Part shown: positions 39,536 through 49,895 of the stretch, one piece after another
How the letters are laid out: every line of letters starts with the position of its first letter
Position numbering within the stretch: position 1 is the stretch's first letter
Assembly: GCA_030432565.1 (NCBI GenBank)
Contig: JAUIGV010000011.1
Span: 62,001 to 126,000 of the forward strand
Origin: Verrucomicrobiia bacterium
GTDB taxonomy: Bacteria > Verrucomicrobiota > Verrucomicrobiia > Verrucomicrobiales > Akkermansiaceae
Reading direction: 5' to 3'
DNA length: 64,000 nucleotides
Notes under the pieces: generated by a model
Database searches by the model: none
What the model saw: only the letters and a program-made list of their open reading frames with translations
What the model was told of the DNA's origin: nothing
Made by a program: the position numbers and the translations under genes

Positions 39536-40303
39536 ATGGATCCCAATAGTCCGCCAACACTCGAGCACGGTATTCCTGATCCGGAGACCTATCTGCCGGC
39601 GACTCCGGATTGGTTTTGGTGGTTTTTAATCGCGGGTATTGTTCTAACTGTTTTTGCGATTTGGTGGTTAATACACCTTCTCTTCGAGAGACCCAAAAAA
39701 GCGAAATCTATCCCTGAGCGAGATCTGTTCACCCCGGCAATGAAAGTTCTAGATTCGCTCGAATCACAAGCTGGCGAGAGATTGATTTCGGAGATCGCGG
39801 CGGAAGCCTCATTGGCGATCCGGACCTATCTGGCCGGCGCTCGATCGGAGCCCGCACTCTATGAAACTGTGGAAGAATTTCAAGCGCGTCAGGCCGTCCT
39901 GCCCGCTGACACCAACCAAACTCTCAATCGTTTGAACGAAGCCAAATACGATAGATCGGAAATCGATCAATCCCGCTCGATCAGACTAATCGAGGAGTCG
40001 CGGGTGTGCCTTGCAAAGCTCCGTCGATTTTCTCCGGCCGAAGATCAAAAGGACGGCCAAATGCCAACCTTGCCTGAAGTCAAAACAGCCGGATGGATTC
40101 AGCGGACCTTTGCGAGACGGACTCTCGCCGCCTTTCCCTTTGGTCTCATTCTGGCGCTCGGAGGCTTACTGGGAAGCACCTATCAAAGACGCGGCGTGGG
40201 AGCTGAAATTCAAGGGAATGCTTTGGTCTGGGTCGGACTCTCGATCAGCGTGGTTGCCCTTGTCACCTTTCTTCTCATTCGCCCTTCCAAGGAATCATCA
40301 TGA
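39536..40303 (+). CDS. DUF4381-like membrane protein of the Bat operon
   Basis: This 255-residue protein occupies the position, and has the layout, of the DUF4381-type gene found between DUF58 and BatA genes. A proline-rich N-terminus (PPTLEHGIPDPETYLPATPD) leads into TM1 (WFWWFLIAGIVLTVFAIWWL), then a cytoplasmic region of about 120 residues, and two further TM segments near 200-220 and 228-247. The extra C-terminal helices are more than the family usually has. It overlaps the following VWA gene by 4 bp. Confidence 0.75.
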   Translation: MDPNSPPTLEHGIPDPETYLPATPDWFWWFLIAGIVLTVFAIWWLIHLLFERPKKAKSIPERDLFTPAMKVLDSLESQAGERLISEIAAEASLAIRTYLAGARSEPALYETVEEFQARQAVLPADTNQTLNRLNEAKYDRSEIDQSRSIRLIEESRVCLAKLRRFSPAEDQKDGQMPTLPEVKTAGWIQRTFARRTLAAFPFGLILALGGLLGSTYQRRGVGAEIQGNALVWVGLSISVVALVTFLLIRPSKESS

Positions 40304-41328
40304 GCTTTCTCGACAACTACGATCTCGCGGAACCATGGTGGCTCTTGCTGCTTCTGGGTGTCCCGCTTCTCATGCTGTTGGGTTATCGCCAGGGAACCCG
40401 CAGTTGGCTCGTCTACCCGACCTTGCGGGTGCTGGGAACACTCGGACTCAAACCCAAAGACCGTCCCTTTCACTTTGCGCCCTTGATTCTCCCGCTGATG
40501 TTGATCCCGGCCATCTTTGGGCTCGCCCGACCCCAGGAAACGAGGAGTCGCACCTCAAGCACGGCGAGCGGGATTGATATCATCATCGCCCTTGACGTTT
40601 CCTACTCGATGTCCACGACCGACTTTTATGAATCGGACAATGGCATGCGGCGACCTCAACGCAGGATCAATGCGGCGAAGAAAATTATTACCGAATTTAT
40701 CGAACGTCGACCGGATGACAGGATTGGAATTGTCAGCTTTGCGGCACGACCGTATACCGTCGCACCCATTACTCTCGATCATCAGATACTCGAGTACACT
40801 TTACGTGACGTCGCTTTGGTTTCGGACCGGACCGAGGGCGGCACCGCGATTGGAAGCGCCATTGTAGCGGCGGGTGATCGCCTGGAAACATTGACGCGGG
40901 ACTCAGGAAAAAAGGATCCCAAGAGCAAAAGCAAAGTGATCGTACTGGTGACCGATGGGGCCAGCAACTCCGGGCAACTTTCGCCGATCGAGGCAGCAGG
41001 CCTGGTCGCGGATCTTGACATTAAGGTCTATCCGGTCGCAATCGGAACTCCCCAGGGGCGGATCCGCGGCATGAATACCGGCCAGGAATTTGACACCGAA
41101 ACTCTCAAGGAAATCGCCAAGATCACAAAAGGAGATTTTTATCGAGCGCGCGACTATGTCGGACTTCGGGAGGCTTTCAAAAGCATCGATGATCTTGAGA
41201 AAATCGAGGTTGAAAGAAAGAGCTGGGTGATCAGAAAAGAACTTTATCCCTGGTTCGTCGGAGCATCGGCCCTCCTTGTTTTGGGCTTTCTTTCTGTCAC
41301 CGCATTTAACCCACCCCCGATGCCATGA
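40300..41328 (+). CDS. VWA domain protein, BatA-like
   Basis: This is a 342-residue BatA-type membrane protein: two TM segments in the first 80 residues, a periplasmic or cytoplasmic VWA domain with complete MIDAS (DVSYS at about 99-103, then Thr in EGGTAIGSA and VTDGASNSG), and a TM helix at about 317-337. MIDAS metal binding implies ligand-controlled protein interactions. The gene overlaps its neighbours by 4 bp on both sides, consistent with coupled translation of complex subunits. Bat proteins were first tied to aerotolerance in Bacteroides; the biochemical role is still poorly defined. Confidence 0.88.
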   Translation: MSFLDNYDLAEPWWLLLLLGVPLLMLLGYRQGTRSWLVYPTLRVLGTLGLKPKDRPFHFAPLILPLMLIPAIFGLARPQETRSRTSSTASGIDIIIALDVSYSMSTTDFYESDNGMRRPQRRINAAKKIITEFIERRPDDRIGIVSFAARPYTVAPITLDHQILEYTLRDVALVSDRTEGGTAIGSAIVAAGDRLETLTRDSGKKDPKSKSKVIVLVTDGASNSGQLSPIEAAGLVADLDIKVYPVAIGTPQGRIRGMNTGQEFDTETLKEIAKITKGDFYRARDYVGLREAFKSIDDLEKIEVERKSWVIRKELYPWFVGASALLVLGFLSVTAFNPPPMP

Positions 41329-43325
41329 GTTTTGCAAAACCTGAATGGCTTTTGTGCCTGCTTGCTCTTCCCTTGCTCGGGCTGATGGCCTGGCTTTCGT
41401 GGAAGAATCGGGGCGACCGATGGAAAAAAATGGTGGCTCCTCGCTTGCAGGGACGCTTGAGCAAAACGCGTCCTTCATGGGTCCATTTTACCTCGCTGGG
41501 CCTCGCGTTGGCAGGTTTGGGTGGCTTGATCGTTGCGGTCGCCCAACCGGAATCCGGCGAGGAGTGGGTTGAGGTGGAGAACGAAGGTCGCAATATTCTC
41601 TTTTGCATGGACATTTCCCGCAGCATGCTGGCCCGCGATGTTGAGCCAAACCGACTCATGGCTTCGCGTGCTGCTGCGCTTGAGATTCTGGAACGTTTTC
41701 CCAACGATCGTGTTGGGGTTCTTCTTTTTTCCGGGGAGACGCTCATTCAGTCCCCGCTGACCATCGATCACAGCTTTGTAGAGCAAACTTTGGCCCAACT
41801 CGACCCCAACGATATTCCTGTGGGAGGTTCCAACCTCACCAAGGCCATCGATTCAGGAACACAGCTCCTTGTGGAGACCGGCCAGCAGAGCAATATCATG
41901 GTGGTCTTCAGCGATGGCGAGAAATCCACGGAAGGGCTGGAAGGCGCCGCAGCATCAGCAGCCAGAGAAGGTGTTTTCATCTATGCGATCGGGATAGGCA
42001 CAGCCGAAGGATCATTCATTCCCGATCCGCGTGAGCGAGATGGGAAGTTCCGGGATCGCTCTGGCAATGTTGTTTTTACAAAGCTCGATGAGGAAGCTTT
42101 GAAGGTGCTTGCTGAGGAGACCAATGGATATTATTCCCAAGGCATGGGGGCCGGCTTCATTGGCAAGCTGGATTCAGCGCTTGAAGAAATGGATCGCTTC
42201 CGCGAAGAAGGAAAGCACCAACGGGTTGCTAAACCTGCTCATCGATGGTTTGTTTTCGGAGGACTACTTCTCATGATGACTTCGATTTTTATTCGCTGCC
42301 TGCCTCTAAGGCCGGTCGTTGCCGTGCTGGCTTTCGTTTTTGCCATGCCACGTGCCGAGGCCGGCTTGGTGGAAGATGGCGTTGCCGCTCTGAATGCAGG
42401 CGAGACAACTGCGGCCCGGCAATTTTTCAGTGAAGCCGCCGGGGAGGCCTCGGGCGACCGTGCTGCAAGTCTGCATCTCGCAGCCGGATCGGCGGCCTCA
42501 AAAGCACAGGATTGGTCCGCAGCGGTCGATTCATTCAGCTCGGCGCTCTCCGCTGAAGATCCTGGAATCCAGCAGCAAGCCCACTACGCTCTTGCAACTT
42601 CCCTCTTCTATTTCGGGGTGCCAAAAGCAAAGGCTGAAAAAGTAAAGGCCTGGAAGGGATCGATTGAGCACTTTGAAGCCTCCTTGGAACTGCAGCCGGA
42701 ACATCAGGCCTCGTCCGATAATTTACAGTCGGTCCGGAAGCAATTGGCCGAGCTTCAAAAGGAGGAGAAACAGGACGAACCGGATGGGCAAGATCAGGAA
42801 GAAAAGGGAGATCAGGAGGACGAGAACGAGAAGGAGGAGGAAGGAGACCAAGAGCCCAAGGAGCCGGATCAATCCGACGATGATGGCAAGGATGACGAGT
42901 CGGAAAAAAAGGATCCCGAAGAGGAAGGAAAAAATCCCGATCAAAATAATCCAAATTCTGAAGAGAACACGGACGATCAAGCAGAGGAAAACAAGGGTGA
43001 AGAGAACAAGGGCGATCCATCCAACGAAAACAAGGATGACAAGCAGGGCGGCGACTCAAACGAGGATGAGAGTCAGCAAGATCCGAAGTCCGGGGATGAT
43101 CAATCAGATCCCAAGAATAATCAGAACAATGGACAGGAGGGAAAGCAAGGTGGTCAGAACAAGTCAGAGCCTGAGAGTGCCAATCTAAAAGATGATCCCA
43201 ATGCTCCGGAAAATGAGACACCCCGCGAGAGAGCCCGACGGCTTTTAAAACAGTATTCCGATTTTGGTGGCAAGGCTCCGCGGAGAATTCAGAGATCCTA
43301 CAATCGAAGCCAGCACGATTGGTAA
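41325..43325 (+). CDS. BatB-BatC fusion: VWA domain, TPRs and acidic low-complexity tail
   Basis: This 666-residue protein joins what are usually two genes. Residues 1 to about 320 are BatB: two N-terminal TM helices, a VWA domain with MIDAS DISRS at about 97-101 and a TM segment near 308-325. A second hydrophobic stretch (VVAVLAFVFAMPRAEAG) then leads into TPR-like repeats of BatC (about 345-470). The last 190 residues are extremely acidic and low in complexity, with long Glu/Asp/Lys/Asn/Gln runs, ending with a basic RERARRLLKQYSDFGGKAPRR. The acidic tail is probably disordered. The antisense and +1 frames here are open only because of this composition. Confidence 0.88.
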   Translation: MSFAKPEWLLCLLALPLLGLMAWLSWKNRGDRWKKMVAPRLQGRLSKTRPSWVHFTSLGLALAGLGGLIVAVAQPESGEEWVEVENEGRNILFCMDISRSMLARDVEPNRLMASRAAALEILERFPNDRVGVLLFSGETLIQSPLTIDHSFVEQTLAQLDPNDIPVGGSNLTKAIDSGTQLLVETGQQSNIMVVFSDGEKSTEGLEGAAASAAREGVFIYAIGIGTAEGSFIPDPRERDGKFRDRSGNVVFTKLDEEALKVLAEETNGYYSQGMGAGFIGKLDSALEEMDRFREEGKHQRVAKPAHRWFVFGGLLLMMTSIFIRCLPLRPVVAVLAFVFAMPRAEAGLVEDGVAALNAGETTAARQFFSEAAGEASGDRAASLHLAAGSAASKAQDWSAAVDSFSSALSAEDPGIQQQAHYALATSLFYFGVPKAKAEKVKAWKGSIEHFEASLELQPEHQASSDNLQSVRKQLAELQKEEKQDEPDGQDQEEKGDQEDENEKEEEGDQEPKEPDQSDDDGKDDESEKKDPEEEGKNPDQNNPNSEENTDDQAEENKGEENKGDPSNENKDDKQGGDSNEDESQQDPKSGDDQSDPKNNQNNGQEGKQGGQNKSEPESANLKDDPNAPENETPRERARRLLKQYSDFGGKAPRRIQRSYNRSQHDW

Positions 43326-43341
43326 TCTGCAGAAAATAATC

Positions 43342-45618
43342 GTGAGATTTTTCTCAATCATTCTGGTTTTTGCGATTATCGCAGGAAGCCCCCTCTTCGG
43401 TCAGAGCGCCCCGGCGATCCGGACCAACCTCGACAGCTCAATGATTGTCGTGGGTGAAAAAACCTATCTGACGGTCTGGGTTGAGGATCTTACGCTGATT
43501 GATTGGCCCACCACGCCCAAAGCAGCACCTCTCGTCATCAAACGGGAATCGCAGCGTCGTTATCAAATCAACGGGCGCATTCGCGAGGGTTTCCGGTATT
43601 TGATCTCGGCCTTCGAGCCTGGAGTTTATACGGTCCCCCCCTTTGAACTTCAAACCCGTTCCGGGGTCATTCGATCACGTGGCCACACTCTTCGAGTTGC
43701 GCCAATTGATAGCCTTGAAACACACGGGATTAAGATCAGAGGAGATGTTACACCCTACTTGACCGGTGTTTTTGTCGAGAAAATGAATCCCTATTTGGGC
43801 GAAACGCAGGATATCGAAGCCAAGCTGTATCTCTCGCAGGCCGCACCCCACTTACTCCGATTGTCGGATGGGAACGTCATCAACATGAAGAAGGACGGAC
43901 TCGCTGCCTGGCGATTTACCACGACCGCAGAACCGACGGGATTTCTCGATTATGACGGCCATCAATTTGCCGTCTACACCTACACGAGTTCCATCAACGC
44001 CCTTAGGGATGGCGCCCTTGTCCTTGGGCCGGGCTCAACCAACGCAACATTGCTCCGGCGGCAAATGGTTCGTGGTGGCTTTGCCACCGCCTCTTTTGTC
44101 ACAAAGATCGATTTTCCGGCAGTTGAGCTGAACGTTCGCCCCCTTCCCGACGGAGCACCGGCCGGTTTTGGCGGTGCAGTGGGATCCTTCTCCATGGAAG
44201 TTCGCCCCCTGAGTCTCGAGCTGGAACTTGGTGGCTCCCTTACCGTTGAAACGCGAATCACCGGTTCCGGGAACATCGATCAATTCCCCGGACCGCAGTT
44301 GGTTGACCCCGACGGAAATTGGAAACAGTTTGAAACAATGGCGAGACCGAGTGGAGGTGAACGCCGATCAAGTTCAGGAACCGCCGAGTTTTCGCATGTC
44401 TTGCGTCCTCTCAAAAAAGTGCCAACCCTGCCCCCCTATCGCTTCGTCTACTTTGACCCCTTGCTCGAGAGTTACGAAACGAAAGAGTCTCCTCCTTTTC
44501 CAATCCTGATCACGGGTGACATCCCTTCGTCTGCAACCGGAAAGGTGTCCCCGGAGTTTCTAGCGACCGGCAATCGCCCTTTGAAAGCATTCGGAAAATC
44601 TTCGCCTCTCGTCAAGTGGTCCTGGCAGATTATTCCGGCGTTGATTGTCTGCTGGATTCTAGGAACTGGATTCCGGAACACGGTTAAAGCTCGTCAGACT
44701 GCGTTATTACCGCAGAGGGAGTTTGAGCAGGATCTCGAGAAAGTAATTTCGGCAGGTGGTGACCGGGTGAGATTTTTCCGGGAAGCAGCCCGTTTCGCCG
44801 CCGACCACAACGCGACTGATGGATTTGAAGAAATTTTTGAGACGCGGGATGAAATTTGTTTTCGGCAGGATTCGAAATCAGAGCCAATTGAACCCGGCGA
44901 AAAGAAGCGCATCTTGAGGCTGCTGAGAACCTTGTCCCCTCTTCTGCTGGTTTTCCTCTTTGCGGGTTCTGTCATTCAACCGGCCAACGGAAACGACTTT
45001 ACTCCCGAAGATGCGAAAACCCGGATTCTTGAAGACATGAAAACGGGGGCAGTGAGGGAACATTTTCACAACCTTTCCATCTGTGAAAATGAATTGGGGA
45101 ATCCAGGCAAAGCCGCACTCTGGGCTTATCGTTATCAGCTTCAAGGCGGCGACAGCTCCAAATTAATGATCGATCTACCCGGGATTCGCGCGCGGGAACC
45201 GGAGGGAACGGAATGGGTGTCGATCTTACCAAAGTGGCTTTATCTTCAAATTTGCCTCCTTGGATTTTGGTCGCTTGTCATCGTCATGCTGACCGTCCGC
45301 TATATCTTGGGTCGGGCGCGGCGAACTCTCATCATGACCTTCGCTACCCTCACCGGAGCGGGCCTCCTAATTGGAGGGATCGGACTGTGGCTCTATCCAA
45401 AAGGAGTAAGCTTTGAGCCGCTAAGTGAACTCTCGGTGGTAACCAAAAAAACGCCATTGAGGAGTCAGCCCTTTGAGGGCGGTGATGCCGCCCGTGAAAA
45501 TGTCGTTGGCAGTCTTTGTCTGGTTGAAACGAGCCGGGCGGGATGGGCCAAAATCAAGCTTCCCGGAGGTTATTCCGGATGGGTTAGGCAAGATGACGTC
45601 TCGCCGATCGCGGAATAG
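43342..45618 (+). CDS. BatD-BatE fusion: BatD beta-domains, TPR-like region and SH3 domain
   Basis: This is a 758-residue protein. GTG 43342 yields a signal peptide (MRFFSIILVFAIIAGSPLFG), so I prefer it over the longer frame from 43264, which overlaps the previous gene. Residues about 25-420 resemble BatD (repeats of immunoglobulin-like beta structure, such as SMIVVGEKTYLTVWVEDL). There is a TM helix near 435-455, a second hydrophobic segment near 535-550, then BatE-like features: a TPR-like stretch (MKTGAVREHFHNLSICENEL), two TM helices and a C-terminal bacterial SH3 domain (PLRSQPFEGGD, ending GGYSGWVRQDDVSP). BatD and BatE are usually separate proteins. Confidence 0.82.
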   Translation: MRFFSIILVFAIIAGSPLFGQSAPAIRTNLDSSMIVVGEKTYLTVWVEDLTLIDWPTTPKAAPLVIKRESQRRYQINGRIREGFRYLISAFEPGVYTVPPFELQTRSGVIRSRGHTLRVAPIDSLETHGIKIRGDVTPYLTGVFVEKMNPYLGETQDIEAKLYLSQAAPHLLRLSDGNVINMKKDGLAAWRFTTTAEPTGFLDYDGHQFAVYTYTSSINALRDGALVLGPGSTNATLLRRQMVRGGFATASFVTKIDFPAVELNVRPLPDGAPAGFGGAVGSFSMEVRPLSLELELGGSLTVETRITGSGNIDQFPGPQLVDPDGNWKQFETMARPSGGERRSSSGTAEFSHVLRPLKKVPTLPPYRFVYFDPLLESYETKESPPFPILITGDIPSSATGKVSPEFLATGNRPLKAFGKSSPLVKWSWQIIPALIVCWILGTGFRNTVKARQTALLPQREFEQDLEKVISAGGDRVRFFREAARFAADHNATDGFEEIFETRDEICFRQDSKSEPIEPGEKKRILRLLRTLSPLLLVFLFAGSVIQPANGNDFTPEDAKTRILEDMKTGAVREHFHNLSICENELGNPGKAALWAYRYQLQGGDSSKLMIDLPGIRAREPEGTEWVSILPKWLYLQICLLGFWSLVIVMLTVRYILGRARRTLIMTFATLTGAGLLIGGIGLWLYPKGVSFEPLSELSVVTKKTPLRSQPFEGGDAARENVVGSLCLVETSRAGWAKIKLPGGYSGWVRQDDVSPIAE

Positions 45619-45655: not shown

Positions 45656-48175
45656 CTACGAAGCCGATGCGCTGGTTTCCTTTGGCTTCTTTCCAGCCTT
45701 GGTCTTAAACGAAACCTTTTTCTCGTCCTTTCGCACCTTGGCCGTGACGTGCTGTCCTCCCTTGACCTCGCCTGAGAGAATTGCTTCTGCAAGCGGATCC
45801 TCAAGAAGTTGCTCAACAGCGCGGCGCATGGGGCGCGCGCCATAGTCAGGATCGTAGCCCTCGGTGACGATAAGATCGCGAGCTGACTCCTCGAGAACCA
45901 GTTCGATCTCTTTTTCAGCAAGACGCTTCACCAACTTGGCAACCTCCAGATCAACAATTTGGTTGAGACTTTCCTTCTCGAGCATGCGGAAGACCACGAG
46001 TTCATCCAGTCTGTTGAGGAATTCCGGGCGGAAGTGCTTCTTGGCGACGGCGTCAATCTTGGCCTTCATTCCCTCGAAGTCAGCTTCATCTTCGGCCATC
46101 GCATTGAAGCCCAAAGTGGTTTGGCGCTTGATGCTCTCGGCCCCGACATTGGAGGTTAAAATGATGATGGTATTTCGGAAATCGATCTTACGACCAAAGC
46201 TATCCGTAATCATGCCCTCTTCCAAAATCTGGAGCAGGAGATTCATCACGTCCGGGTGGGCCTTCTCGACTTCATCAAAAAGAATCACCGAGTAAGGACG
46301 GCGTCTGACGGCTTCGGAGAGCTGACCTCCTTCTTCATAGCCGACATATCCCGGAGGCGAACCGATGAGGCGGCTTGCGCTGAACTTCTCCATGTATTCC
46401 GACATGTCGATCTGAATGAGTGACTCAGGATCGCCAAACATAAAGTTCGCCAGATTTCGGGCAAGATAGGTTTTACCGACGCCGGTCGGTCCAAGGAAAA
46501 GGAATGATCCGATGGGACGACGTGGATCCTTGAGGTCCGCACGGGAACGACGGAGTGCCTTCGAAATTGCCACGACCGCTTCGTTCTGCCCGATGACGGT
46601 TTCCTTGAGGTTCTCCTCCATTTTGAGGAGCTTGGCAGCCTCTTTCTGTTCCATACGTTGGAGCGGAACTCCGGTCCACTTCGAAACGACCGACATGATG
46701 TCGTCCTCTTCGATATCGACGATCTTCTCTTCGCTTTCGCCGCGCCACCCTTCGATCTTGTCATCGAGTTCCTTGCGGGTGCTTTTTTCTTCGTCACGAA
46801 GAGCTGCGGCTTTTTCAAAATCCTGATCGTTGATGGCGGCGACCTTTTCGTCATTGATCTCCGCGATGCGCGCTTCGAGATCCTTCAACCCGATCGGGCG
46901 GGTCATCGTTTTAATCCGGGCGCGGGCACCGGCTTCGTCAACCACGTCGATGGCTTTGTCCGGAAGAAAGCGGCTGGTGAGATAACGTGAGGTCAACTTC
47001 ACGGAGGCCTCCAGGGCATCGTCGGTGTAGCGAACCTTGTGGTGGCTCTCATACTTTTCGCGGAGCCCCTTCATAATTTCGATCGCATCCTCGATCGACG
47101 GCTCGTTGACTTTCACCTGCTGGAATCGGCGCTCCAAAGCGGAATCCTTTTCAATATGCTTTCTGAACTCATTGAGAGTTGTTGCTCCGATACATTGAAG
47201 TTCGGCCCGACTCAGAGCTGGCTTGATGATGTTCGAAGCATCCATGGCTCCCTCGGCTGATCCCGCACCAACGATGGTGTGGAGTTCGTCGATAAAAAGA
47301 ATAACGTTCTTCACCTTGCGGATTTCGTCCATGACAGCCTTGATCCGCTCCTCAAATTGACCGCGATACTTCGTGCCGGCGACCATTAGGGCGAGGTCAA
47401 GAGTGACCACCTTCTTGTCGCGAAGAATTTCGGGAACATCGCCTGCCGCGATCTCTTGGGCCAGGCCCTCCACGATCGCAGTCTTTCCGACACCGGCCTC
47501 CCCAACCAGAACCGGATTATTCTTGGTCCGACGGCAAAGAATTTGGATGACGCGCTCGATTTCGGAAGAACGCCCAATCACAGGGTCAAGTCCCCCTGCT
47601 TGCGCAAGTTTGGTGAGATCGCGACCGAAAGCCTTCAGGGCCGGAGTCTTGGTTTTGCCTTCGGCATCTTCCTCATTCTCCATCTCCATTTCGTCATCAT
47701 CCTCGAAATCGAAATCATCCTCGGAATCTTCAGCAGCAAAATTCGGATCAATCTCGGCGAGCACCTCGTTGCGGGTCGTTTGGAGATCCACACTCAGGCT
47801 GGTGAGAACACGGGCCGCCATTCCTTCGCCTTCGCGGAGCAAACCAAGGAGAATGTGTTCGGTCCCAACGTAAGAATGGTTAAGCTGCTTGGCCTCCTTG
47901 TTTGCCAGGGCGAGAACCTTTTTCACACGGGGTGTATAGGGAATGTTGGTTGAGTTTTTGTCATCAGGACCAGTCCCAACTTCCTTCTCCACTTCCATGC
48001 GAACGGACTCAAGGTCGAGCCCCATCCGTTGGAGGACGCTCACTGCAACTCCCTGCCCAAGCTTAATGAGCCCCAAGAGAACGTGTTCCGTCCCAATGTA
48101 GTTGTGGTTGAATCGGTCGGCTTCTTTTCGAGCCAAAGCCAGCACCTGCTGTGCGCGTGGTGTGAAATTATTCAT
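45656..48175 (-). CDS. clpC: ATP-dependent protease ATPase subunit ClpC
   Basis: This 839-residue Hsp100 unfoldase works with ClpP. The N domain (1-145) has two Clp repeats ([29 protein letters not shown] in the first, of which residues 8-25 are the core). An acidic linker at about 148-172 ([20 protein letters not shown]) is longer than usual. The first AAA domain has Walker A GEAGVGKT at 225-232, and the middle domain includes a UVR motif ([20 protein letters not shown]). The second AAA domain has GPTGVGKT and the arginine-finger region. ATG 48175 gives the normal N-terminus. In Gram-positive bacteria ClpC binds phosphoarginine-tagged substrates made by McsB, whose gene is 31 bp upstream. 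Confidence 0.97.
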
Positions 48176-48206
48176 GGAATCTTTAAGGTAAAGTGGGGAG
48201 TCTCGG

Positions 48207-49298
48207 TTAATTTTCTTTTCCTGTAATATCAATAGCAGGTGGCAGTGATGATTGCAACTGCTCCCGAATCATTTGGGCCCTGAGGATGTCGCGGGCTTCC
48301 GGCTCAAGCTTGCGCCCCGCCCGCCATTGAAGGTGGGCTGGCTGGGTCTCCATAAAGAGCCGATCACAAGTCTCGACGAGATCTGCGGGCAAAAGCTGCA
48401 GATCCGCCCCCAGTCGGAGCATGGAAAGATGATTGAGAGCCTCTTTCGAGGTGATAATGTGGGCGTAGGAAAGATTGCCTGCGGCACGTCCGATGCGATC
48501 CCGAACCATCACCGGATCTTCGATCATGAGCCTCTTGCGCGCTTGCAGTTCATAAAGTGCGACATCACCAATCACCTTGGTCAATCGATCTAGAATTTCT
48601 TCCTCACTCTCGCCGAGTGTTGATTGATTCGAAATTTGGTAAAGGTTCCCCAAGGACTCGGTGCCTTCTCCGTATAACCCGCGAACCGCAAGTCCCAGCT
48701 TGTTGATCCCTTTCAGGACCTGACCAATTTGGTCGCTTAAAACCAAGCCCGGCAAATGGAGCATCGACGAGGCCCGCATGCCCGTACCAAGGTTGGTTGG
48801 ACAAGCTGTGAGGTATCCCAGGGTCGGGTCAATCGCAAAATCGACCACCTTTTCGAGGCTCTGGTCGATGGTGTGGGCCAGTTTGAAAGCCTCCTTCAAT
48901 TGGAGGCTGGGACGGATGGCCTGAATCCTAAGATGATCCTCCTCGTTAATCATCAAACTCAAGGTCTGCTTGCGATTCACGACAGAGCCACTCCCCTCGC
49001 TCCGGGCCGCCTGCTCCCGGCTGATCAGGTGGCGCTCGACGAGCACCTGCTTTTGGAGAGGCTCGAGGTCGCACAGCTCGTGAGAAAAACCGTCCTTCAT
49101 ACCCGGGATGCCTTCCAATTTCCCCTGAAGAGAAGAGCGAACCGCCTGACGTTCCTTTTTGCGCGCCCAACCCGGGAATGGAGCCTTGGCAAGATTTCGG
49201 GCCAGGCGAACCCGGCTCGTCAAAACGACCGAAGTTTCAGCGCCGTGCCCTGTCATCCAGTCAGCAGGATGCTTCAACAGTGTTGTAAATCGCATCAT
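48207..49298 (-). CDS. mcsB: Protein-arginine kinase McsB
   Basis: This 363-residue ATP:guanido phosphotransferase-family kinase phosphorylates arginines in proteins. Conserved elements are TSRVRLARN (27-35), NEEDHLRIQ (118-126), the active-site loop with Cys166 in LTACPTNLGTGMRAS and VVDFAIDPTLGYLTA before it. The C-terminal RDILRA (336-341) matches the RDxxRA motif through which McsB senses phosphoarginine. All these point to an active enzyme rather than a creatine-kinase-like relative. Its start overlaps the mcsA stop by 4 bp, and clpC follows after 31 bp. No CtsR repressor gene is adjacent. Confidence 0.95.
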   Translation of the reverse strand: MMRFTTLLKHPADWMTGHGAETSVVLTSRVRLARNLAKAPFPGWARKKERQAVRSSLQGKLEGIPGMKDGFSHELCDLEPLQKQVLVERHLISREQAARSEGSGSVVNRKQTLSLMINEEDHLRIQAIRPSLQLKEAFKLAHTIDQSLEKVVDFAIDPTLGYLTACPTNLGTGMRASSMLHLPGLVLSDQIGQVLKGINKLGLAVRGLYGEGTESLGNLYQISNQSTLGESEEEILDRLTKVIGDVALYELQARKRLMIEDPVMVRDRIGRAAGNLSYAHIITSKEALNHLSMLRLGADLQLLPADLVETCDRLFMETQPAHLQWRAGRKLEPEARDILRAQMIREQLQSSLPPAIDITGKEN

Positions 49299-49828
49299 GA
49301 CCCAACTACTCCCTTCCCGCTCTTTTCGATTTCGCTGATCTCATCCCGAATGATGGCCGCATCCTCGAAACGCTCTTCCTCAATCGCACTTGCGAGTTTG
49401 GTTGCCAAACCTGCGAGTTCTGACTCCAAAGCCTGCTTCTTCGCCAAGCCCTCCGGCAAATACCCCTTGTGGACTCCCCCCTTGTGCATCGAGGGAAGCC
49501 GCCCCATGATCTCACGGGAAAAGACCTGATAGCATTCAGGACAACCCAGACGCCCTACCTTGCGAAAGTCTTCCAGGGTGAAGCCACAGGCACTGCAATC
49601 CTCCTGATTCAGATCCGCGATGAGATCGGGGATTTGGGTCTGAGGCGGCGAACTTCCGAGCAAATCACCACCCATTAGAAGGCCGTCCACGCTGGTGATC
49701 CCTTTCTTTTGGGCGCACGATTCGCAGAGGACAAACTTCTTGAGCTTGCCGTCCGTCACCTGGGTGTAAAACACCGTGGCCTTTTCCTGGCATGAGTCGC
49801 ACTTCATCAACAATGAAAAGGTAGCCAT
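49295..49828 (-). CDS. mcsA: McsA-type kinase activator (zinc fingers plus UVR domain)
   Basis: This is a 177-residue protein. Four CxxC pairs are present: C10/C13, C35/C38, C78/C81 and C96/C99, forming two zinc modules, followed by a helical UVR (UvrB/UvrC) domain at about 130-168. This is the McsA architecture; McsA activates McsB and links it to ClpC. The start could be ATG 49828 or ATG 49807 (MKCDSC), the latter more like B. subtilis McsA. It is first in the mcsA-mcsB-clpC operon and is divergent from an SDR gene, with a short palindrome between. Confidence 0.9.
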   Translation of the reverse strand: MATFSLLMKCDSCQEKATVFYTQVTDGKLKKFVLCESCAQKKGITSVDGLLMGGDLLGSSPPQTQIPDLIADLNQEDCSACGFTLEDFRKVGRLGCPECYQVFSREIMGRLPSMHKGGVHKGYLPEGLAKKQALESELAGLATKLASAIEEERFEDAAIIRDEISEIEKSGKGVVGS

Positions 49829-49895
49829 TCGCGTACCAATGGCTACCGAAAATTCCGCGATTTCGTTCTAACTTTTCTTTCAGGTGAAATTGAAG

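Follow-up and report, generated by a model that had tools for sequence, protein, structure and literature searches.

Can the mcsA–mcsB–clpC cluster of a diderm bacterium carry out protein-arginine phosphorylation when no ctsR gene accompanies it? The question is raised by a stretch of 64,000 nucleotides, hereafter called the window, from a Verrucomicrobiia bacterium (assembly GCA_030432565.1, contig JAUIGV010000011.1, positions 62,001 to 126,000). A preliminary description of this DNA had assigned the operon to a 'probable Verrucomicrobium', which holds at the level of the phylum only, the family being Akkermansiaceae. We find that the locus is very probably an active phosphoarginine protein-quality-control operon that works without CtsR. 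What can be read directly are the three genes and their order, the residues for catalysis, for phosphoarginine reception and for reading, and the companion genes; the activities, substrates and control discussed below are predictions. The three genes lie intact at 45656–49807, all on the minus strand, as seen from the list of open reading frames and the alignments of relatives.

49295..49807, minus strand: mcsA, protein-arginine kinase activator with four CxxC pairs and a UVR motif; the mechanical open reading frame extends to 49828
48207..49298, minus strand: mcsB, protein-arginine kinase of 363 amino acids, with a 4-base overlap with the mcsA stop
45656..48175, minus strand: clpC, Hsp100 unfoldase with two Clp_N repeats carrying GTEH motifs, two AAA modules, a UVR-containing middle domain and the LGF ClpP loop

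The start of mcsA is likely the internal methionine at 49807, since the relatives align from MKCD onward and the codons upstream of it are not conserved. McsA has all of the four zinc-binding CxxC pairs that had been described earlier (CDSC, CESC, CSAC and CPEC) along with the UVR motif (PF02151), and it matches the solved McsA chain 8wtb_B with an E-value of 3.7e-22. McsB scores 395.7 bits against NF002194, the NCBIfam model for protein arginine kinase, which is above the cut-off of 385, and it also matches PF00217 (ATP-gua_Ptrans, E 5e-65). The clpC gene starts with MNNFTPRAQ like its relatives (the mechanical frame starts at TTG 48232) and is separated from mcsB by 31 bases. Its product matches PF02861, PF07724, PF10431 and PF02151, as well as B. 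subtilis ClpC (3j3s, E 3e-298), and retains the equivalents of E32 and E106 within the two N-terminal GTEH motifs. Judged by their sequences, open frames of such size and score are no chance product. The operon of the preliminary description is confirmed.

The next point is whether McsB can act as a protein kinase. The seven residues that we take to be its catalytic set (R29, E121, R125, C167, R176, R207 and E212 in B. subtilis numbering) are all kept in the alignment, where residue 166 of the window protein falls on C167. The Cys166 loop and the C-terminal RDILRA motif (RDxxR) of the preliminary description are thus borne out, as is its expectation that the active site would align with that of B. 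subtilis. The phosphoarginine receptor residues S285, R337, D338 and R341, which are named in the accessible part of PMC8370763, are identical at 4/4 positions. The seven catalytic and three receptor residues are also kept in 50 other genomes of the phylum sample, with seven same-genus relatives among those read. It may be argued that mcsB encodes a phosphagen kinase acting on free arginine, as these enzymes have the ATP:guanido phosphotransferase domain PF00217 in common with it. However, the solved McsB chains (8wtb, 6tv6 and 6fh1) match residues 12–349, including the C-terminal dimer/receptor domain, with E-values of 3e-81 to 1e-80, whereas phosphagen kinases match the catalytic part only (single-domain chains reach 5e-27 at best, two double-domain chains 6e-40 and 2e-48). 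The gene also sits between mcsA and clpC. Free-arginine kinase activity is, therefore, highly improbable, and this identity was rejected on the full-length McsB match.

A working phosphoarginine system would also need a protease and an eraser, and the preliminary description had proposed looking for clpP and a YwlE-type arginine phosphatase. Both are encoded elsewhere in the same genome. Of clpP, one copy is clear (contig C55, E 1e-77), and a second match is weaker (E 3e-19). Three low-molecular-weight (LMW) phosphatase genes are present, with the P-loops CMGNICRS (tyrosine type), CTGNTCRS (YwlE type) and CTGNSCRS (arsenate-reductase type, so classed by its tree position). The YwlE-type gene is sited outside the window at G000:C79:131138-131551, and its product carries CTGNTCRSPMAE, with threonine at position 5 of the P-loop. 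According to the available portion of PMC8001253, threonine at this selectivity position favours phosphoarginine and isoleucine favours phosphotyrosine. Like YwlE/PtpB, the protein has the C-T-G-N-T-C-R-S P-loop, and its matches include B. subtilis YwlE (4eti, E 2e-21) and the chain 4pic, which is titled arginine phosphatase. It differs in that its top match in the Protein Data Bank (PDB) is 4egs, titled RpiB, which comes ahead of B. subtilis YwlE with an E-value of 7e-26, and in that an rpiB–glyA fusion gene (RpiB–serine hydroxymethyltransferase, SHMT) lies one gene away. The RpiB–SHMT fusion near the YwlE-type phosphatase gene was read at L331:4225-5988 and L336:7545-9218. By its gene content, the genome encodes the whole set of writer, reader, protease and eraser.

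The absence of ctsR, which had been noted earlier, extends well beyond the operon. No ctsR was found in the genome, either as the first gene of the operon or elsewhere (best E 0.84). Across 387 genomes of the phylum there was one marginal match only, in G049, of 41 residues at the cut-off within a frame of 254 amino acids. A tblastn run with a Paenibacillus CtsR on 183 loci, some of which overlap, matched the two Paenibacillus loci only. The positive control was Paenibacillus locus L313, with ctsR (E 4e-38) upstream of mcsA, and among the 14 control genomes Lactococcus alone came above the cut-off. On these grounds, a CtsR elsewhere in the genome or the phylum was rejected.

Taken together, the following scheme may be proposed. 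McsA would stimulate McsB, which would phosphorylate arginines on damaged proteins. The N-terminal domain of ClpC would bind the phosphoarginine, and ClpC, with the ClpP encoded elsewhere, would degrade the tagged protein, while the YwlE-type phosphatase would remove the mark. Transcription of the operon would depend on a local promoter with an inverted repeat lying across it. As there is no CtsR to phosphorylate, the job of the kinase is probably general labelling for degradation.

How does this operon compare with the known systems? In Bacillus and Staphylococcus the order is ctsR–mcsA–mcsB–clpC, and ctsR–mcsA–mcsB was read in Paenibacillus L313. The window shares with that operon the order of mcsA and mcsB followed by clpC, the full-length homology and the catalytic and receptor residues, and likewise has its YwlE-type eraser and ClpP encoded away from the operon. 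It differs in the lack of ctsR, in a glutamine at the position of Arg194 of McsB, in belonging to a diderm phylum and in the inverted repeat before mcsA. An McsB relative (NF002194, E 1e-10) is present in 368 of the 387 phylum genomes, and McsA was found in 52 of 58 relatives. The 14 control genomes, including B. subtilis (which did match for LMW phosphatase), yielded no McsB match; this control is silent, because B. subtilis went unmatched although its McsB is in the PDB. The order mcsA–mcsB–clpC holds in most of the same-class loci fetched. Several other families have mcsAB without clpC nearby, and in two f2 genomes, G066 (L096/L097) and G234 (L098), mcsA is on a different contig from mcsB–clpC. 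Of 80 named loci, 65 have all three genes side by side, 12 have mcsAB alone and three have mcsB–clpC alone, some of the contigs being short.

The diderm setting proposed earlier is correct as to the host, but not as a novelty. In the accessible parts of the respective papers, Chlamydia trachomatis, likewise a diderm bacterium, has mcsAB and clpC (PMC10128030), its McsAB being CT675/CT676 (PMC11708050), and Chlamydia ClpCP2P1 degrades arginine-phosphorylated casein (PMC10128030). The same source places mcsAB apart from clpC in Chlamydia, whereas the three genes are adjacent here. With Chlamydia already published and McsB near-universal in the phylum, a diderm McsAB–ClpC is not new. The operon represents a known system, standard in the phylum, in a form without CtsR. 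Our literature search, judged mainly from search listings, turned up neither a study of McsB in Verrucomicrobiota nor one of McsB pseudokinases.

A different picture emerges outside the window, where a number of genomes have a degenerate McsB. Its residues were read in 110 of the 387 genomes, and the remaining genomes are known by E-value alone. The residue-checked set consists of 51 phylum-sample genomes (the window included), 30 low-scoring ones and 29 new loci from a mixed set of 30 genomes, chosen by E-value with a few members of the window's family added. The seven catalytic residues are all kept in 66 of these 110 and not in the other 44 (L128–L157, L161, L168, L170, L172 and L177–L186); this fraction is no rate, since low scorers were deliberately sought. 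E-value alone was rejected as a test of kinase health, as G055 has 3/7 catalytic residues at 6.8e-104 and G086 has 7/7 at 2.4e-82. A stop codon inside the McsB match was seen once each in G084 and G173; the other degenerate McsBs have none, and a few matches are short. No intact second mcsB copy was seen, because each matched genome gave a single McsB match (in G191, two pieces of a single frame).

The operon is often kept around the degenerate genes. When 19 of their neighbourhoods were fetched wide, mcsA adjoined mcsB in 18 (L235 gave no tblastn match) and clpC did so in 14. At least four CxxC pairs were found in the McsA of 18/19 (only a partial frame in L235), and the [LM]GF loop of ClpC in 14/14 of these neighbourhoods and in 35/35 others. 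Five close pairs of dead McsBs gave ratios of nonsynonymous to synonymous substitution rates (dN/dS) of 0.11, 0.13, 0.22, 0.27 and 0.41 (dS 0.78–1.92, rough), which speaks for dead McsBs under selection. Among more distant dead pairs ratios of 0.75–0.86 were found, and for pairs of a dead with an intact McsB the ratio was about 1; the dead McsBs have therefore also evolved fast. PF00217 was still above the cut-off in 4/4 of the dead McsBs scanned with Pfam. These findings raise the alternative that, in the window too, McsB is mainly a non-catalytic adaptor or regulator of ClpC together with McsA, with vestigial kinase activity, as is apparently its sole role in related lineages. The kept neighbourhoods and the low ratios of the close pairs favour such a role. 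Against it stand the catalytic and receptor residues, all kept in the window and in the seven same-genus relatives read, the YwlE-type phosphatase retained in the same genome, and the ratios of the distant pairs. For the window, we consider the adaptor role improbable.

Within one genus of the window's family, g2, the loss can be followed on a tree of ClpC. Two changes are needed there, the starred branches forcing two: the degenerate G096 groups with the intact G231 (support 95/94), while the other ten genomes form a group of their own (100/100). In this ten-genome group with dead McsB (L218–L227), the first GTEH of ClpC is altered to GAEH, NVEH or NSEH. It is kept in G096, in three other aligned ClpCs from genomes with dead McsB and in 35 others. 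Further, G231, G149, G175 and G293 (L159, L169, L174 and L175) have all seven catalytic residues and have lost the receptor Arg337/Asp338; the YwlE-type motif is found in the first three and not in G293. As these four retain the catalytic set without the receptor residues, three of them with the phosphatase motif, the sequences suggest that receptor loss precedes the catalytic decay of McsB.

The eraser was then compared with the state of the writer by scanning all 387 phylum genomes for the pattern C-x-G-N-T-C-R-S. It matched in 41 of the 66 genomes with intact McsB, not all of these matches having been read as letters, and in three of the 44 with degenerate McsB, or 0/44 after inspection; the matches in intact-McsB genomes were inspected less closely than those in degenerate ones. 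The three discarded matches were an unrelated frame (G301) and two with TGN, not serine, as the last codon (G090 and G356). Fisher's test gives p 4e-13 for 41/66 against 0/44, and 2.5e-10 without genus g2, these values ignoring shared ancestry. The same separation is seen between close relatives. In g2, the intact G231 has the motif and its degenerate sister G096 does not. In g38, G149 and G175 are on the motif side versus G304, and in g156, G346 is set against G249. In f39, G209 is set against the degenerate ones, with the intact G101 also lacking the motif. Five further comparisons have an intact side known by E-value only: in g71, G173 (degenerate, no motif) versus most others; in f32, G055 (degenerate, no motif) versus G040 and G052; in f36, the degenerate G090 versus G068, G095, G225 and G338, with G233 also lacking the motif; in f27, G014 and G076 versus most of g75/g78; and in f46, G117, where C167 alone among the seven is lost, versus G367.

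A tree of LMW phosphatases points the same way. The proteins were read in 21 genomes (20 and that of the window), three divergent rows (L212, L215 and L216) being omitted from the tree. The tyrosine type stands apart from the side that holds B. subtilis YwlE and the arsenate-reductase group. Eleven of the genomes count as intact, eight being residue-checked and three (G009, G010 and G039) judged by E-value only. In nine of them a YwlE-like protein falls on the side of B. subtilis YwlE, some with isoleucine for threonine; the case of G009 is unclear, and G248 lacks such a protein. No YwlE-like protein was found in the ten degenerate genomes, all residue-checked. Among these ten, the phosphatases of G083 are one of arsenate-reductase type and one that is unplaced, and G193 and G017 have no LMW-phosphatase match. 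Ile-type YwlE-like phosphatases were read at L199 and L201, and also at L202, L203, L205 and L209 (McsB intact by residues or E-value); the open frames at L201 and L199, of 607 and 740 codons, are possibly fusions. In the genomes examined, the YwlE-type phosphatase, as recognised by its motif, accompanies intact McsB and is missing where McsB is degenerate.

Several observations weigh against the reading of an active phosphoarginine operon. The scores fall under the cut-offs of two other family models, with 109.5 bits for McsA against NF053706 (E 1.6e-31, cut-off 210) and 371.6 bits for McsB against NF053707 (cut-off 500). The Thr-type motif is missing from 25 of the 66 intact-McsB genomes, including G248, a draft near-identical to G021. 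In four of these 25 whose phosphatases were read, G013, G072, G088 and G128, the YwlE-like protein has isoleucine and not threonine, and the specificity of the eraser is therefore not uniform. G132, G264 and G364, drafts that are 91, 93 and 80% complete, have the YwlE-type motif without any McsB match. Lastly, the accessible part of PMC8370763 describes phosphorylated Arg194 as holding the B. subtilis McsB octamer together, and this position is glutamine in the window, so that the phospho-clamp is absent. Arginine occurs there in two of the 66 intact McsBs of the phylum (G290 and G086) and in seven of the 80 named loci, two of these being Paenibacillus. In an McsB without Arg194 the gated-cage control may, therefore, not apply, and the cage of B. 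subtilis McsB may not be general. Arg194 is taken as a trait of some species and is no criterion for the McsB family.

As for the phylum, a broader proposal seems to us evenly balanced. McsB would have repeatedly become a pseudokinase across this diderm phylum, with the operon often kept under selection. The catalytic residues, usually the receptor, and the YwlE-type phosphatase would have been lost together, at least twice in the one genus of the window's family. McsA–McsB would then serve as a kinase-independent adaptor of ClpC, and arginine phosphorylation would be a detachable layer. The ratios of the distant dead pairs weigh against this proposal, and so do the three genomes with a motif and no McsB match. 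What is new is suggested to lie outside the window, where kinase residues and phosphatase appear to have been lost together more than once while the operon stayed in place.

Another issue is how the operon is controlled in the absence of CtsR. Two elements were noted before mcsA.

49820..49847, no strand assigned: inverted repeat GGTAGCCA-N12-TGGCTACC, directly before mcsA, a candidate operator or 5' hairpin
49818..49823, minus strand: hexamer TACCTT, resembling a -10 box and lying at the repeat's 3' arm

A TAnnnT hexamer is seen by eye at the same place in the alignment of many relatives. If TACCTT acts as the -10, transcription would start a few bases before the ATG and the mcsA mRNA would be almost leaderless. 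mcsA was located in 22 same-genus genomes, and 13 of these have the repeat, with up to two mismatches, ahead of that gene; in the rest it is degraded or absent. Its overlap with the promoter-like region in these 13 might indicate an unrecognised CtsR-like repressor, with control as in Gram-positives. However, the CtsR searches stand against such a repressor, with none in the genome, the one marginal match among 387 genomes, and Paenibacillus loci alone matched among the 183. Moreover, all nine copies with at most one mismatch in the 27 same-genus genomes searched are before mcsA, unlike the operator of a regulon, and the 35 matches within two mismatches (one strand, 27 genomes) are fewer than the 86 of a reversed control pattern. 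The repeat was, therefore, rejected as a regulon operator, and we give CtsR-like control very little credence. In a hairpin test on 15 sequences, no compensatory double change was found, with 12 wobble versus 10 broken cells; this set omits the identical row G390, the longer-spacer G399 and same-genus members without a recognisable element. The 'different regulation' of the preliminary description stands in so far as CtsR is missing. Beyond the other end of the operon, two genes judged by eye to be von Willebrand-like and one BatD-like gene (PF13584) at 40300–45618 converge on clpC, and they stay beside the operon in 6/7 same-genus genomes fetched wide.

The interpretation given in the preliminary description is, on the whole, partly supported, and arginine phosphorylation by this operon is predicted. 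The comparisons support a phosphoarginine cycle that would work where McsB is intact, and they suggest a kinase-independent role elsewhere. Phosphoarginine labelling has been studied mainly in Gram-positives, and the intact writer, reader and eraser predicted in many Verrucomicrobiota would offer a second, diderm place for its study. In addition, relatives that range naturally from intact to dead McsB, with the operon kept around it, would provide a direct means of learning how McsA and McsB serve ClpC when no phosphorylation takes place.

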